Virus record (IMG/VR): IMGVR_UViG_3300034072_002214
Location: 1 to 37,906 of that record
Strand: one strand, 5' to 3'
DNA length: 37,906 bases
Origin: a virus
The translations under genes were made by a program, and so were the position numbers. The notes below the pieces were generated by a model. It saw only the letters and a list, made by a program, of their open reading frames with translations, was not told where the DNA came from and ran no database searches. This document shows, piece after piece, positions 14,681-29,285 of the stretch. Numbering within the stretch: position 1 is the stretch's first letter; every line of letters starts with the position of its first letter.

Positions 14681-14919
14681 CAGCGGCAAAATCCGCTGTC
14701 GGGATTCTGACCCCCGGTTAATTCAAACGAGCACAAGGCGCTCTGGCGCTTTTTTTGTGCCTGCAATCCAGCTACGCTTGCGTTATGGCGGCTGGGTGGG
14801 GCCACCTTCGGGTGGGCCGGTGCGCGTTTGAGCCGGTGGTCAGAACCCTGTCCAGTCGCCTCCATGAATTCTGACCTCATGAAGGCGGTTTAAAACCCAA
14901 TTCAAACGAGGCTCACGCC
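14681..14919 (+). ncRNA. C4-type antisense RNA locus, copy 1 (body 14787-14860)
   Basis: Structured leader of the 101-aa gene. In order: a CAGCGG/CCGCTG hairpin (14681-14698); box a1 TTCTGACC (14705-14712); box b1 TTCAAACG (14722-14729); a terminator hairpin; then the C4 body. The body has a closing stem GGCGGCTGG (14787-14795) with CCAGTCGCC (14852-14860), a hairpin capped by UUCG (loop 14807-14810), and a CCGG/CCGG hairpin with b' CGTTTGAG in its loop (14825-14832). Next to it lies single-stranded a' GGTCAGAA (14838-14845). Boxes a2 (14869-14876) and b2 (14901-14908) repeat a1 and b1; b2 abuts the SD GAGG. a' and b' therefore can pair with both box pairs. The layout matches P1/P7 C4 RNA and resembles P4 CI RNA. 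Confidence 0.82.
14731..14760 (+). terminator. intrinsic terminator between a1/b1 and the C4 body, copy 1
   Basis: Stem AAGGCGC (14735-14741), loop TCTG, return GCGCTTT, then a T run to 14756. An outer GCACAA/TTGTGC pair is also possible. The equivalent hairpin in copy 2 has different stem bases (AAGACGC/GCGTCTT) but keeps pairing and the T run, so it is a conserved functional element, probably an attenuator controlled by antisense binding to the adjacent b1 box. Confidence 0.7.
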
Positions 14920-15225
14920 ATGAACAAATCCGCACGTAAAACCGCTTCACTTCCGTTACAACAAACCCGCCGCGTTATTCAGTTGGATCAATCGCAATTT
15001 GCGCTTTATCAATCCGGGCAAATTGATATTTACGCCCCGGACGGTACGCGCCTGGAATCCATCGGCCACTTTCCTGCTGAAGAAAATCGCACACGCTTTG
15101 TGGATCAACTCTCGCTGGTGGAAGCGCTGGTGGTTAATTGCAATGGCCAACTGGAGTTAAGTGACCGGGCCATTGCAAGCCTTGCTGATTTGCTTAATAA
15201 ATCCCAAAAAATGATTGAGCATTAA
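14920..15225 (+). CDS. C4-controlled protein, 101 aa, paralogue of the 100-aa protein at 27841-28143
   Basis: 101-aa protein of unknown function. It shares R-R-V-I-Q-L-D-Q-S-Q-F-A-L-Y-Q-S-G with the 100-aa protein (R-R-I-V-T-L-D-A-S-Q-Y-A-L-Y-Q-T-G). Both continue with a (D/E)-(I/L)-x-x-P-x-G-x-x-L-(E/D)-(S/T)-(I/V)-G strand region and an (F/L)-x-D-Q-L-x-L-V-E-(A/C)-L-(V/L) helix, ending in a helical hairpin. The SD GAGG at 14908-14911 touches box b2, so C4 RNA binding would block translation. By analogy with P1 it holds the place of icd/ant, but there is no sequence similarity that I can see. Confidence 0.78.
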   Translation: MNKSARKTASLPLQQTRRVIQLDQSQFALYQSGQIDIYAPDGTRLESIGHFPAEENRTRFVDQLSLVEALVVNCNGQLELSDRAIASLADLLNKSQKMIEH

Positions 15226-17438: not shown

Positions 17439-17466
17439 GTTTGTTACTCCAAAAATAACTTTGTTT

Positions 17467-17542
17467 GGCTGGCTAGGAGTGAGTCGAACACTCAACCTCT
17501 GGTTTTGGAGACCAGCGCTCTACCAATTGAGCTACTAACCAA
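17467..17542 (-). tRNA. tRNA-Trp (anticodon CCA)
   Basis: Complete 76-nt cloverleaf on the minus strand. Acceptor TGGTTAG pairs with CTAGCCA (7/7 with one G-U); D-stem GCTC/GAGC with loop AATTGGTA; anticodon stem CTGGT/ACCAG with loop CTCCAAA (anticodon CCA). The variable loop is AGGTT, and T-stem GAGTG/CACTC carries loop TTCGACT. Discriminator base G73 fits bacterial tRNA-Trp, and CCA is encoded. It sits between the sheath and tube genes in the same orientation, so it is probably cut from the late tail transcript. Confidence 0.93.
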
Positions 17543-23296: not shown

Positions 23297-23485
23297 GCAA
23301 TCAACATCCAGTGAATTAAAAATAAATAATTTATTCCGTGCTTATTCAGCGAGTGATTGCAGAATATTGGTGTTTTGAACTAGGTACAAAGCCAACAGGT
23401 TCGATTAATTTCTAAAAGTTTCATTTAGAAATTTGTAAAACTTTCCCGCATCTTTAATTTGCATTCAGCGCTTTACACTGCCGCT
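23297..23485. promoter_or_regulatory. divergent late promoter region with Ogr box (23371-23388)
   Basis: 189-bp gap between divergently transcribed O and P. TGT (23371-23373) and ACA (23386-23388) are separated by exactly 12 bases, the dyad recognised by P2 Ogr/P4 Delta, with further flanking symmetry (TTGG...CCAA). The Ogr homologue is encoded at 26387-26632. The box would sit near -55 of either promoter. I see no second perfect copy here and no good -35 elements, which is expected for activator-dependent late promoters. Confidence 0.65.
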
Positions 23486-25261
23486 ATGAATGCAAAAGCC
23501 ACCACACCGCCAATTAAAGCCACACCTGAAATAAAGGCCGCCGCACGCGGCCTTTATTTGCAGCACACGCCTATCTCTGTTATTGCGGAACGCTTTGGTG
23601 TTTCTGGTCGCACCGTTTACAACTGGCGCGATGAAGGCGAGTGGGACAACTTAATTGCAGGCGTGAGCATTGAGCAGGCGATAAGCCGCCGCATCATTGA
23701 TTTGGCAGAGCAGAAAAATAAAACTCCGGCTGAATTAGATGAAATGGACAGGCTGATTAATCAGCTGGACAAAATGGCAGGCGTTCGCCTCAAGGAAGCA
23801 AAGACAGCAGCTGTATTGAAAGGTGAAGCCGCAAACGATGGCGGCGAGATTCAAAGCCAGCGCGCAGATAAAAAGAAAAAATCCAAAATAAAAAATGATG
23901 TTAGCGGCATCACTGCTGAAGCTTTAGAAAAAATACGCAAGGAACTGTTTTACGAATACCAGCACAATTGGTTTGACAATAAAGGCCAGCGCACCCGCTT
24001 TATTCTGAAATCCCGCCAGATTGGTGCCACCTACTATTTTGCGTGGGAGGCCTTTGAGGATGCCATTCTCACTGGCGACAACCAAATATTTTTAAGCGCC
24101 AGTAAAAACCAAGCGGAAATATTCAAAGCCTACATGATTGGCTTTGCGCATAAATATTTTGAGCTGGAGCTAAAAGGCACCGACTGCATAACACTCAGCA
24201 ACGGTGCAGAACTGCGCTTTGTTTCCACCAATGGCCGCACCGCCCAGGGCTACCACGGCCACTTGTACATAGACGAAGTATTCTGGATTCCAGACTTTAA
24301 AAAGCTGAACGCTTTGGCCAGCGGCATGGCCGCGCACAAGAAGTGGCGCAAGACTTACTTTTCCACCCCGTCCATTAAATCCCACGGCGCTTACACATTG
24401 TGGAGCGGTGAGAAATTTAACGACAACCGCAAGGCTAAAGCTGAATTCGATTTGTCCCACAAGGCGCTTAAAGATGGCCAGCTGGGTGCAGATAAAATTT
24501 GGCGCAACATCGTTACGGTGGTGGATGCACAGGAAAAAGGCTGCGATTTATTTGATATTGACGAATTGCGCATTGAGTACAGCGAAGCAGAATTTAACAA
24601 CCTGTTTATGTGCGCATTTATGGAAGCCGGGCTTTCGGTTTTCAAGCTGGGCGATTTGCTCAACTGCGCAGTCGATAGCAATGTGGTGTGGGTTGATTTT
24701 AAAGCCGGCACCGTTCGGCCCTATGGCAACCGCCCGGTGTGGATTGGTTACGACCCCGCCCGCGTGGGCGACAAATCCGCCGTGGCGGTATTGGCCGCCC
24801 CGCTCTCACCTACTGAAAAATTCCGCGTATTGGAGAGCATCACCCTGCGCGGTGCATGGCGAAACCAAGCCAATGAAATTAAAAAATTGGTTGATAAATA
24901 CAACGTTGCGTTTATGGGCATTGACTGCACCGGCCCCGGCAATGGCGTATTTGAAATGGTGCAAAACTTTTTCCCCCGCGCAAAACCAATCCACTACGGG
25001 CTGGACACCAAAACCACACTGGTACTGAAAGCCCAGGACGTAATTGAACATGGCCGCATTGAGTGGGATGCAGAACATACCGACATTCCCCAATCCTTTT
25101 TGCAAATCACCCAAACCAGCACTGGCAACGACCAGATCACCTACGCGGCGAACCGCACACGCGACACCGGCCACGCGGATAAAGCCTGGGCAATTATGCA
25201 CGCGCTCCACAACGAACCTTTAAACACCGAACGCCGCAGAAGCGGTGTAGCAATGGGCTAA
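23486..25261 (+). CDS. P: terminase large subunit GpP
   Basis: 591-aa packaging motor. The N-terminal helix-turn-helix (about 27-50, V-I-A-E-R-F-G-V-S-G-R-T-V-Y-N-W) is typical of GpP. The ATPase has Walker A K-S-R-Q-I-G-A-T (175-182) and Walker B-like Y-I-D-E (261-264). A C-terminal nuclease-like region begins with W-I-G-Y-D-P-A. The ATG at 23486 is chosen over an upstream TTG; no strong SD is seen. Confidence 0.93.
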   Translation: MNAKATTPPIKATPEIKAAARGLYLQHTPISVIAERFGVSGRTVYNWRDEGEWDNLIAGVSIEQAISRRIIDLAEQKNKTPAELDEMDRLINQLDKMAGVRLKEAKTAAVLKGEAANDGGEIQSQRADKKKKSKIKNDVSGITAEALEKIRKELFYEYQHNWFDNKGQRTRFILKSRQIGATYYFAWEAFEDAILTGDNQIFLSASKNQAEIFKAYMIGFAHKYFELELKGTDCITLSNGAELRFVSTNGRTAQGYHGHLYIDEVFWIPDFKKLNALASGMAAHKKWRKTYFSTPSIKSHGAYTLWSGEKFNDNRKAKAEFDLSHKALKDGQLGADKIWRNIVTVVDAQEKGCDLFDIDELRIEYSEAEFNNLFMCAFMEAGLSVFKLGDLLNCAVDSNVVWVDFKAGTVRPYGNRPVWIGYDPARVGDKSAVAVLAAPLSPTEKFRVLESITLRGAWRNQANEIKKLVDKYNVAFMGIDCTGPGNGVFEMVQNFFPRAKPIHYGLDTKTTLVLKAQDVIEHGRIEWDAEHTDIPQSFLQITQTSTGNDQITYAANRTRDTGHADKAWAIMHALHNEPLNTERRRSGVAMG

Positions 25262-25265
25262 CACA

Positions 25266-26312
25266 ATGAGCAATCGCCGTAACCGCCGTAACAACACTGC
25301 AACCAAACCAGACACGTTTGTTAACGAAACTCGCCCCAGCGCGCCCACCATATTTAAATTCGGTGAACCTGAATCTGTGCTATCCAATTCGCCCAGCGAT
25401 TACCTTGGCGTTTTTCTGGCCCCCGGTGATTACTATGAGCCGCCAATTTCATTGGTTGGCCTGGGCAAAATTTTGCGAGCGAACGGGCACCACTGCACCA
25501 TCCCGCCGTTCCGCAAAAACCGCCTACTGCAGTACTACAAAACCAGCAGCGTGATTAGTGATGATGACCTGGGCAACGCATCCATTGACTACGATGTTTT
25601 TGGAAACTGCTACCTGCAAAAAATATTCAACCGTTTTAATCAGGTGATTGCATTCCGGCACCTGCCTGCCATTTCAATGCGCAAAATGAAAAAGGCAGAT
25701 ACCTACTGCCAGTTGCAGAAGGACGGCAAACCGCCCATTGAATTCAAGCCGGGTGAAGTGGTTCACCTGAAAGAATATGACGTGATGCAAACCGTGTACG
25801 GTATACCCCAGTATTACGGCGGCATTAACTCTATTTTGTTAAGTGAAGATGCAACCCTATTCCGCCGCAAGTATTACGTGAACGGCGCGCACATGGGGTA
25901 CATCCTGTACACCAGCGATTCATCGCTAGACCCGAAGGATGAAGAAGCGATTAAAAAAGCGGTGAAGGAAAGTAAGGGCGTGGGTAATTTCCGCTCACTG
26001 TATTTGAATATCCCGAACGGGAAAAAAGACAGTGTGCAATTGATCCCCGTTGGTGATATTGCCACCAAGGACGAATACGAGCGCATTAAAAATATTACCC
26101 GCGCAGAAATATTGGCCATGTGGAGAATGCAACCCGCGCTCTCCGGGGCCATGCCAGATAATGCCGGTGGTTTTGGTGATATTACGAAAATTGCAGACGT
26201 TTATTTTGAATATGAAACGGTGCCCATGCAGGATAATTTCTTAAAGCTAAACCAGTACACAGCACCGGGTTTTAAATTGGAATTTGGTAAGCCAGAGAAG
26301 GCTGCAGCATGA
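25266..26312 (+). CDS. Q: portal protein GpQ
   Basis: 348-aa P2 GpQ-family portal. Characteristic segments are Y-Y-E-P-P-I-S-L-x-G-L (about 57-67), H-x-x-x-P-P-F-R-K-N and Y-G-I-P-Q-Y-Y-G-G-I. The R-A-E-I-L-A-M-W-R-M-Q-P-A-L segment with P-D-N-A-G-G-F-G-D lies near the C-terminus. It follows the terminase gene by 4 bases, as in P2. Confidence 0.93.
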   Translation: MSNRRNRRNNTATKPDTFVNETRPSAPTIFKFGEPESVLSNSPSDYLGVFLAPGDYYEPPISLVGLGKILRANGHHCTIPPFRKNRLLQYYKTSSVISDDDLGNASIDYDVFGNCYLQKIFNRFNQVIAFRHLPAISMRKMKKADTYCQLQKDGKPPIEFKPGEVVHLKEYDVMQTVYGIPQYYGGINSILLSEDATLFRRKYYVNGAHMGYILYTSDSSLDPKDEEAIKKAVKESKGVGNFRSLYLNIPNGKKDSVQLIPVGDIATKDEYERIKNITRAEILAMWRMQPALSGAMPDNAGGFGDITKIADVYFEYETVPMQDNFLKLNQYTAPGFKLEFGKPEKAAA

Positions 26313-26340
26313 TGGACTATGCTGCAAAAAAACGCACAAA

Positions 26341-26349
26341 TGTTATACT
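26341..26349 (+). promoter_or_regulatory. extended -10 promoter candidate for ogr
   Basis: TGTTATACT is a TG-N-TATACT extended -10 element 38 bases before the ogr ATG. No good -35 is visible, which fits extended -10 promoters. It overlaps the region just after the portal stop. Confidence 0.45.
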
Positions 26350-26386
26350 CTTGCCGCGCACAATTTTATTTCGCGGGGAAGACCAA

Positions 26387-26632
26387 ATGATTCTAATCAG
26401 ATGCAAAGTGTGCAAGGGAAAGGCGATAGTTCATGCCAGAAAAGAGTTGGACGTAACAATGAGCCAGCTTTATTGCAGCTGTAAAGATCCAGAGTGTGGC
26501 CATACCTTTGTTATGGATTTATGTTTTAGCCACACGCTTTCACCAAGTGCACAGCAAGCCAAAGATGTAGTAGTAAGTTTCTTGCGCGCCCTGCCGGATG
26601 CAGAGCGCCAGTTAATGCTTGCGAATTTATAA
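26387..26632 (+). CDS. ogr: late-gene activator Ogr/Delta
   Basis: 81-aa zinc-binding activator of phage late promoters. Cysteines C6-x2-C9-x22-C32-x4-C37 have exactly the spacing of P2 Ogr. The start at 26387 has GGGGAAG upstream; a longer frame begins in the portal gene and is rejected. The Ogr-type box at 23371-23388 is its likely target. Confidence 0.92.
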   Translation: MILIRCKVCKGKAIVHARKELDVTMSQLYCSCKDPECGHTFVMDLCFSHTLSPSAQQAKDVVVSFLRALPDAERQLMLANL

Positions 26633-26869
26633 TCAGGCGGCCTTCACCACGGCCACCTGATTTGAATAGACTGTTTTCAAAATTCCTTCCGCTTTTTCCA
26701 TCTGCTGATTTTGCCACTCCAGCAACACAAACAAGCCGCTAGCCTCCTGCTCTGATAATTCGCTCGCACTCATTCTTGTGCACATGCCCTGAATCAAACT
26801 GTTTACAGCCCTTACCTGCTCCAATGTTTCAAGCGCGCTGTTAAATTTTGTTACCTCTCTTGTCGGCAT
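26633..26869 (-). CDS. hypothetical helical protein downstream of C4 copy 3
   Basis: 78-aa helical protein convergent with ogr. GGAG lies 8 bases before the ATG at 26869. Its middle (S-E-L-S-E-Q-E-A-S-G-L-F-V-L-L) faintly resembles the C-terminal hairpins of the C4-controlled 100/101-aa proteins. It is the first gene after C4 copy 3, so it may be the controlled gene. Longer frames through the RNA element are probably not translated. Confidence 0.6.
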   Translation of the reverse strand: MPTREVTKFNSALETLEQVRAVNSLIQGMCTRMSASELSEQEASGLFVLLEWQNQQMEKAEGILKTVYSNQVAVVKAA

Positions 26870-26904: not shown

Positions 26905-27299
26905 ACCTGCAAAAATTGCATCTATTAAAAATAAAGTTGATTGATAAAACGAGAAACTGCGGATTGCCCGCAAAAATGAGTATCGCGTTTGTTCTGCCCT
27001 TTGTACTGGGGGCGACTGAGCAGGGTTCGCAGTGCTGGCGCAAAAGCAAGCCAGCCCACCCCGAAGGGTGGCCCCACCCAGCCGCCATAGAACAGGCGTA
27101 ACCGAGGGGTGGCAATTGATCACCTGACGATCAATTGACCAGCTTTTGCTTTTGCAGGCTGCGAAACCCGGAGGCACATGAGGTGCCACGGCGCAAAGGT
27201 TAGGCAGCACGCCGGATTCTGTCAACGGATTTTTGTGACGCAGTTCCGCTACTGAAAGGTAATGCTATGTAATTGCTTTTTCATGCAATTTTTGCAGGT
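26905..27299. repeat. 17-bp perfect inverted repeat flanking C4 copy 3
   Basis: ACCTGCAAAAATTGCAT at 26905-26921 is repeated in inverse orientation at 27283-27299. The pair brackets C4 copy 3. Next to the right copy, TTCATGCAA occurs twice (27280-27288 and 27302-27310), 22 bp apart, about two helical turns. No transposase is near. The repeats could be insertion scars or protein-binding sites controlling the C4 transcript. Confidence 0.55.
27011..27165 (-). ncRNA. C4-type antisense RNA locus, copy 3 (body 27011-27086)
   Basis: Same body as copies 1 and 2 but more diverged. The closing stem GGCGGCTGGG (27086-27077) pairs with CTCAGTCGCC (27020-27011). The UUCG hairpin has one extra base pair. 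The second hairpin stem is GCTGGC/GCCAGC instead of CCGG/CCGG. Its loop TTGCTTTTGC (b', 27049-27040) is a perfect 10-base complement of b1 at 27146-27155, and a' CTGCGAA (27026-27032) pairs with a1 (27159-27165). The hairpin between a1/b1 and the body (27113-27137) has no T run. I find no convincing a2/b2 downstream. Confidence 0.72.
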
Positions 27300-27411
27300 A
27301 CTTCATGCAATATTTTGTGGTCAATGTCTCACACGCGCATGGTTAATTTCCTACAGACAGGCGGCATCTAAATCATCACTATTCTGAGCACAAAAATGAA
27401 TGGAGTTTTTT

Positions 27412-27840: not shown

Positions 27841-28143
27841 TCAATTTAGAAACTCATTCGCCTGGTGCAGCAAATCCACCAACCCCGCCCCTGCCCGCTC
27901 GTTTAGCTCCAGCGGGTAGTTGCCATTGCACAGCAGGCATTCCACTAGGTAAAGCTGATCCTGCAGGCGCATACGGCTTACTTCGGCTTCATCGCGGCTG
28001 GCAAGGGTGCCTACGGTGTCCAACAACTCGCCAGTGGGCGAATGCAGCTCTATGTTGCCGGTTTGGTACAGGGCGTATTGGGAAGCGTCTAGGGTGACGA
28101 TACGGCGGGATTTTGGGGCAGTTTTGCGGGTAGCAGTGTTCAT
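27841..28143 (-). CDS. C4-controlled protein, 100 aa, paralogue of the 101-aa protein
   Basis: 100-aa protein clearly homologous to the protein at 14920-15225 (R-R-I-V-T-L-D-A-S-Q-Y-A-L-Y-Q-T-G and L-Q-D-Q-L-Y-L-V-E-C-L-L). The two differ in the basic N-terminus and in the central loop. Its leader contains C4 copy 2, and box b2 (28158-28165) lies just before the SD GAGG, so its translation should be silenced when the cognate RNA binds. Function unknown. Confidence 0.78.
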   Translation of the reverse strand: MNTATRKTAPKSRRIVTLDASQYALYQTGNIELHSPTGELLDTVGTLASRDEAEVSRMRLQDQLYLVECLLCNGNYPLELNERAGAGLVDLLHQANEFLN

Positions 28144-28617: not shown

Positions 28618-28872
28618 ATGCAGAACAGAAAATATTTCACCCCATCAAAACTTGGGAAAACAGCAAAGATAACCAATGCTTACGTAACCACCCAAAGTAG
28701 TTACGTTGGTTATTGTGTCATACGCCCAAAATTATCAAGACCAGTTGAAGCAGTTAAACCTGGTCGCTTCCGCATGACATCGGAAGAACTCAGTGCAATC
28801 TCCAAAAAAGGGGCAGAACTACTTCTGAATGCAACCCCTGAAGATATGAACAACTATCGCAAATGGCAGTAG
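28618..28872 (+). CDS. putative antitoxin of the YafO-type pair
   Basis: 84-aa basic protein directly upstream of the toxin gene, overlapping it by 10 bases. I do not recognise the Phd/YefM fold expected of YafN antitoxins. The C-terminus (M-T-S-E-E-L-S-A-I-S-K-K-G-A-E-L-L) is helical and could wrap the toxin, and the N-terminal part is short and strand-rich. Antitoxin role inferred from gene order, overlap and operator palindromes. Confidence 0.62.
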   Translation: MQNRKYFTPSKLGKTAKITNAYVTTQSSYVGYCVIRPKLSRPVEAVKPGRFRMTSEELSAISKKGAELLLNATPEDMNNYRKWQ

Positions 28873-29285
28873 TTGTTCGCCGCTCAGATTTTCTCGCCAA
28901 ACAAGTTACCGCCGAAAAATTAGCAACGCTAATTGCGGACTTTAAGGATTTGAAGTCGGGAATCCCAATAGGTACCTTTGGTAAGGATGTTGCTTACGAC
29001 CACATAAACACCCTCCCGTCTGTGAAAGCCGAAGAACTCAGACACATTCACATCATTGGTATTAATGACACCTTTAAGTCATATGTTAGGCAGGAAAATA
29101 AAACCAGCGACAACCACTTGGTTTATTGCAGTAATTTTTTTGACCCAAACACTTATTTGCTAATTGCTATTCTTGAGCCAAACGCCCATGAGTTGGCCAA
29201 AAATAATCAATTGATGTTAAACCTTGTCGATATCGCAAAAGATTTTAGAAATATGAATTTCGCACAAGCAGCAACTACCGCTTAA
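28863..29285 (+). CDS. yafO: YafO-type mRNA interferase toxin
   Basis: 140-aa protein resembling E. coli YafO over nearly its full length. Shared elements are F-G-(R/K)-D-x-x-Y-D, (R/A)-H-I-H at about 60-63, and the D-x-H-L-V-Y-C ... F-D ... L-L-I-A-I-L-(K/E)-P-x-x-H-(K/E)-L-A-(R/K)-(D/N)-N-(N)-Q core (about 82-119). YafO is a ribosome-dependent endoribonuclease that cuts mRNA downstream of the start codon. The toxin starts inside the antitoxin gene and is followed by a terminator. Confidence 0.88.
   Translation: MAVVVRRSDFLAKQVTAEKLATLIADFKDLKSGIPIGTFGKDVAYDHINTLPSVKAEELRHIHIIGINDTFKSYVRQENKTSDNHLVYCSNFFDPNTYLLIAILEPNAHELAKNNQLMLNLVDIAKDFRNMNFAQAATTA

Follow-up and report, generated by a model that had tools for sequence, protein, structure and literature searches.

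The virus record analysed here (IMG/VR record IMGVR_UViG_3300034072_002214, positions 1 to 37,906; this whole stretch of 37,906 nucleotides is referred to as the window) is a 37.9 kb virus contig of the P2-like type, in which the genes at 23459-26632 include those for terminase, the portal protein, and an Ogr/Delta activator. Three C4 antisense RNAs were identified with Rfam, at 14781-14866 on the plus strand (C4-1), 28281-28196 on the minus strand (C4-2), and 27092-27005 on the minus strand (C4-3), and the isrK leader, also detected with Rfam, precedes C4-1 and C4-2 only. The features of the C4-3 locus are as follows.

27197-27225, minus strand: putative sigma-70 promoter, TTGACA-17-TAACCT, assigned from sequence
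27173-27187, minus strand: first leader hairpin, GGCAC-CUCAU-GUGCC, with 2 of 5 pairs changed on both sides over four loci
27159-27165, minus strand: a1 box TTCGCAG, carried by the loop of a small hairpin at 27170-27155, exact complement of a'
27146-27155, minus strand: b1 box GCAAAAGCAA, exact 10-base complement of b'
27113-27137, minus strand: hairpin H1 (CAATTGATC ... GATCAATTG), with double-sided changes in 5 of 10 pairs
27005-27092, minus strand: C4-3 antisense RNA body (RF01695)
27040-27049, minus strand: b' loop TTGCTTTTGC, exact 10-base reverse complement of b1
27026-27032, minus strand: a' segment CTGCGAA, exact 7-base complement of a1
26957-26973, minus strand: conserved, terminator-like hairpin TTGCGGGCAATCCGCAG with loop GCAAT/GCAAA and a T-rich stretch 3' of it, situated ahead of the 78-aa gene and after C4-3
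26633-26869, minus strand: gene for the 78-aa protein, part of the proposed operon and convergent with ogr

The body of C4-3 was scored at 55.8 bits by the RF01695 covariance model (gathering cut-off 45 bits), and its boxes are unlike those of C4-1 and C4-2, which bears out the sequence-only reading of the locus as a genuine, diverged C4 with a third specificity. The same reading had held that the architecture was kept through compensatory stem changes, and this was also observed: the P3 stem is GCTGGC/GCCAGC, as opposed to the CCGG/CCGG-type stems of the sister C4s, and 6 pairs make up the P2 stem CCACCC-UUCG-GGGUGG, as opposed to 5 in both sisters (CCACC-UUCG-GGUGG). C4-3 is thus a genuine member of the known C4 RNA class, and what is new is a conserved lineage of such loci without a2/b2 boxes.

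The putative promoter was not listed by a consensus promoter scan at 27197-27225; it is conserved in aligned relatives, where it reads TTGACA-17-TAATCT both in genome G001 and at the decayed G002 locus. In the leader, the first hairpin aligns with the first hairpin of the c4-a1b1 model at a sub-threshold score, and the a1 hairpin corresponds to the same model (RF03163; 17.6 bits, under the cut-off of 46.7). Despite this score the order of elements is that of c4-a1b1: one hairpin comes first, a second carries a1 in its loop, and b1 follows. The stem of the second hairpin varies among the phages (CGGG/CCUG, CGGG/CCCG, and UAGG/CCUA). H1 occupies the place that the isrK terminator has in the sister loci; it covaries and is not followed by a U tract, and no T run or clear terminator was found in the interval between b1 and C4. 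The missing T run was considered as a peculiarity of the lineage and this was rejected, as many ordinary loci also have no T run before C4. Downstream of C4, the stem of the hairpin at 26957-26973 has changed in a compensatory manner in G001/L004 (TAGTGGGCAATCCACTA), and this hairpin is possibly a weak terminator ahead of the 78-aa gene, a type of match that occurs at chance frequency in the window. In G004/L007, a strong terminator, GCCTCCATATTACTTATGTGAGGC and then T, lies directly 3' of C4.

Several repeats were observed around the locus. The inverted repeat ACCTGCAAAAATTGCA / TGCAATTTTTGCAGGT, at 26905-26920 and 27284-27299, brackets the whole of C4-3, and on its 5' side ATTGCATG is found twice, 22 bases apart (in L004 as ATTGCGCG/ATTGCGTG); these upstream repeats are possible operators. 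With 3 or fewer mismatches allowed, 13 occurrences of the motif ATTTCCTACAGAC were counted, at 27346-27358 of the window and elsewhere, where 6.7 are expected and 0 of 100 shuffles were as high; relatives retain the copy that lies upstream of C4-3.

The a1 and b1 boxes are located in the locus's own leader, 54-73 bases 5' of the C4 body. As had been read from the sequence, the b' loop is a perfect 10-base complement of its own b1 and a' pairs with a1; the two-box pairing score upstream was 48.5, which was matched by 0 of 60 shuffles. Complementarity of a' and b' to upstream a1 and b1, as in RF01695-type loci, extends over 7 + 10 bases in C4-3. The apparent absence of a2/b2 before the 78-aa gene was upheld as well, since no exact a2/b2 runs of 5+5 bases were found downstream of C4-3 and the downstream two-box pairing score of 35.5 was not distinguished from shuffles (p=0.30). 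C4-3 hence does not have the a2/b2 pair that P1/P7-type loci carry at the downstream gene's ribosome-binding site, a feature that is not part of the Rfam model. In the sister loci C4-1 and C4-2, a2 is located at +2 and b2 at or just before the Shine-Dalgarno sequence, and in other loci b2 is at or adjoining the Shine-Dalgarno sequence of the downstream gene.

Relatives of the phage were retrieved by means of the portal protein (one IMG/VR contig and three MAG contigs), and C4 loci were taken from their genomes and from 144 genomes of Cellvibrionaceae. The C4-3 locus belongs to a small conserved lineage. Four syntenic loci, each just behind ogr and before a homologous gene of 74-84 codons, were compared, namely those of the window, L004 (IMG/VR 3300020151_002124), L006 (Gammaproteobacteria MAG C7_D7_9), and L007 (Cellvibrionaceae MAG P9_D7_14). 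Their boxes are as follows.

Window: a1/a' TTCGCAG/CTGCGAA; b1/b' GCAAAAGCAA/TTGCTTTTGC
L004: a1/a' TTCGCAT/ATGCGAA; b1/b' ACACGTACG/CGTACGTGT
L006: a1/a' TTCGCAA/TTGCGAA; b1/b' GCACAAACG/CGTTTGTGC
L007: a1/a' TTCGCAG/CTGCGAA; b1/b' AGTGAACAAC/GTTGTTTACT, with one G-U pair

The upstream pairing exceeded all shuffles in all four loci, and the downstream pairing stood out in none. The b boxes have changed almost completely among the four intact loci, with b1 still tracking b'. Over the whole alignment, both partners had changed in 17 of 59 pairs, and pairing held in 95.8% of cells; 0 of 500 shuffles were as high and a one-base slide abolished the signal, both of which are lenient controls because only four sequences were available and the structure was taken from the same alignment. 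Since a1/b1 and a'/b' have changed in step in four related phages, the match appears to have been kept by selection, and the pairing of a1/b1 with a'/b' in C4-3 is well supported. The suggestion that C4-3 acts only on its upstream boxes gains support from these compensatory a1/a' and b1/b' changes in four phages that all have no a2/b2.

Loss of this complementarity in close relatives, named beforehand as evidence against the proposal, was absent from the four intact loci and present in a fifth: Cellvibrio UBA7671 keeps the promoter, the downstream hairpins, and the gene, and its leader boxes and C4 have decayed together, so that only a C4 remnant without a1/b1 is left. In a sixth phage (IMG/VR 3300012943_000687) the homologue of the 78-aa gene is present and C4 is absent, and a DNA-pattern search for C4 in IMG/VR yielded no further member of the lineage. 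These two genomes, in which the gene outlasts its C4, are what would be expected if a2/b2 had been lost and C4 were simply decaying; decay would not maintain the match of a1/b1 to a'/b' through a nearly complete change of the b boxes in four intact loci, and we consider this explanation highly improbable.

The census comprised 88 C4 loci, for each of which exact runs complementary to a'/b' were measured upstream and downstream, with the flanks of other loci as the control (95th percentile of the null, 6-7 bases). Intact a1/b1 boxes were found in 72 of the 88 loci, including the 4 of the C4-3 lineage. All 4 have intact a1/b1 and no a2/b2, whereas a2/b2 are present in 67 of the 68 other family loci with intact a1/b1 (Fisher's exact p = 3e-5, a value that treats as independent loci that are not), and both box pairs were present in 18 of 18 further order-level loci examined. 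Because the four loci are orthologous, the loss of a2/b2 may be, and probably is, a single event, which places the evidential weight on the covariation that followed it. The one exception among the other loci, G079:C55:87982-88062, has intact a1/b1 and a terminator, has no a2/b2, and is apparently unrelated to the C4-3 lineage.

Some genomes of the Cellvibrionaceae group contain many C4 loci with many different a'/b' pairs (18 matches in G026 and 13 in G003), most of which precede a protein family of ~105 aa (MDN...LDQxQYAFYQQSRLEIHSPxG...). In G103:C2, G060:C11, and G127:C84, C4 is followed by proteins that resemble, by eye, phage regulators of the BRO-N or Rha type, an arrangement that recalls P1 ant.

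The presence of up to 18 C4 loci in some MAGs of the group makes cross-talk conceivable, and it had been suggested that C4-3 might silence a target elsewhere, such as an invading phage or another prophage; a satellite or a gene of the host would be further candidates. The results did not favour this. The pattern TTCGCAG-N0-30-GCAAAAGCAA gave 8 matches in the 144 Cellvibrionaceae genomes, as against 4 for the reversed control, which is at chance level, and none was in a C4-bearing genome. Both boxes together were found in none of the other 87 census loci, and no second target site was shared by the four phages, in which the sole consistent sense site is a1/b1. On the genomes and loci covered, a target elsewhere is regarded as very unlikely.

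The C4 RNAs of P1 and P7 act in trans, and that of P1 is excised by RNase P; the processed product expected for the C4 class is about 77 bases long. By comparison, the leader, C4-3, and the 78-aa gene may form one operon transcribed from the putative promoter at 27225-27197, with C4 excised from the operon transcript. The free C4 would then pair in trans with a1, in its hairpin loop, and with b1 of nascent leaders, and this pairing would lead to premature termination ahead of the 78-aa gene, as P4 CI RNA does at seqA. The route would be leader attenuation and not covering of the ribosome-binding site, and the outcome would be autoregulation, in which C4 limits its own operon in the lysogen, and silencing of any newly infecting phage that shares its specificity. 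Given that a1/b1 persist where a2/b2 have been lost, the explanation that fits best among those left is seqA-like action. We therefore lean, on balance, towards C4-3 being a C4-type antisense RNA that has a1/b1 of its own leader as its only remaining target and acts by leader attenuation; the pairing stands on firmer ground than its outcome, which we infer.

Covariation by itself is no proof of action in trans, because the same pairing forms a stable predicted cis fold in most C4 loci. In each of the four loci, the predicted cis fold of the leader plus C4 has a' base-paired with leader sequence (0.94-1.0 at the best positions), and RNAalifold selected this fold. Together with the covariation, these predictions are consistent with an attenuator that works in cis only, in which a1/b1 and a'/b' pair within one transcript, a co-transcriptional choice between sequestered and free C4 affects downstream terminators, and there is no trans target. 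A cis fold special to this lineage was rejected, since it was predicted for most C4 loci examined. That the fold is shared with ordinary loci, that the relatives in P1 and P7 act in trans, and that a1 is presented in a hairpin loop, an arrangement shared with c4-a1b1 and favourable for intermolecular pairing, argue against a purely cis attenuator, and it is considered unlikely. Quite unlikely, in our estimation, is a one-site self-regulator in which free C4 bound to nascent a1/b1 also frees the new C4 from the predicted cis duplex; if true, one C4 RNA would aid the folding of the next, giving a self-reinforcing RNA immunity switch without a target at the ribosome-binding site.

Action of C4-3 on its own leader may be compared with several known systems. 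The C4 RNAs of P1 and P7 (RF01695) share with it the fold, the variable a'/b', the upstream a1/b1, a small downstream gene, and transcription from one strand; in those RNAs, b' blocks the ribosome-binding site and a' confers specificity (PMC5320573), whereas C4-3 has no a2/b2 at the ribosome-binding site and the gene starts 135 bases after C4. The c4-a1b1 (RF03163) and isrK (RF01394) leaders resemble that of C4-3 in that a leader hairpin precedes a1, which is itself in a hairpin loop, and b1 comes next; the C4-3 leader scored below the cut-off of both (17.6 vs 46.7 bits, with hairpins and a1 aligning in order, and 13.6 vs 50 bits, with no U-tract terminator after b1). Structural homology of IsrK to SeqA RNA has been described (PMC4825925). 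As summarized in that article, which cites Sabbattini 1995 and Briani 2000, P4 CI RNA brings about termination through pairing with two sites, seqA on the upstream side and seqC on the downstream side. Going by that summary, P4 CI RNA and C4-3 are alike in that an antisense RNA pairs with an upstream leader site of its own transcript and differ in that C4-3 has the upstream site only, with no downstream seqC-like site, termination in C4-3 being proposed by analogy. The Group 1 C4-derived sRNAs of Acinetobacter baumannii are likewise many diverged C4 copies with different a'; action on other RNAs has been suggested for them but not proven (PMC5320573), whereas the partner of C4-3 is its own leader. 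Ordinary C4 loci have both a1/b1 and a2/b2, which makes the role of the upstream boxes hard to separate. The C4-3 lineage kept only the upstream pair, matched through sequence change, which indicates that upstream pairing is selected in its own right, and it provides a natural one-site system that isolates what the upstream a1/b1 boxes do.

The start codon lies 82-146 bases after C4 in the four-locus lineage and mostly 46-54 bases after it in other loci. Homologues of the 78-aa gene in four relatives encode 74-84 aa, and the protein was modelled with AlphaFold2 as a two-helix hairpin (mean pLDDT 87); no match was found in Pfam, PHROGs, or PDB sequences. Homology to the ~100-aa products encoded after C4-1 and C4-2 was considered and rejected, the same region aligning without significance (E 0.11). 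By analogy with the P1 operon, the 78-aa protein may have a regulatory role, as a small protein acting on lysogeny or on the host.

The products encoded 3' of C4-1 (14920-15225, plus strand) and C4-2 (27841-28143, minus strand) resemble the ~100-105-aa family and had no match in Pfam or PHROG. Beside C4-2, at 28618-29285 on the plus strand, an 84-aa ORF precedes a gene for a toxin of the YafO type (PF13957, E 2e-29), the two together being a probable type II toxin-antitoxin pair. A tRNA-Trp gene is also located within the phage record, at 17466-17541 on the minus strand.
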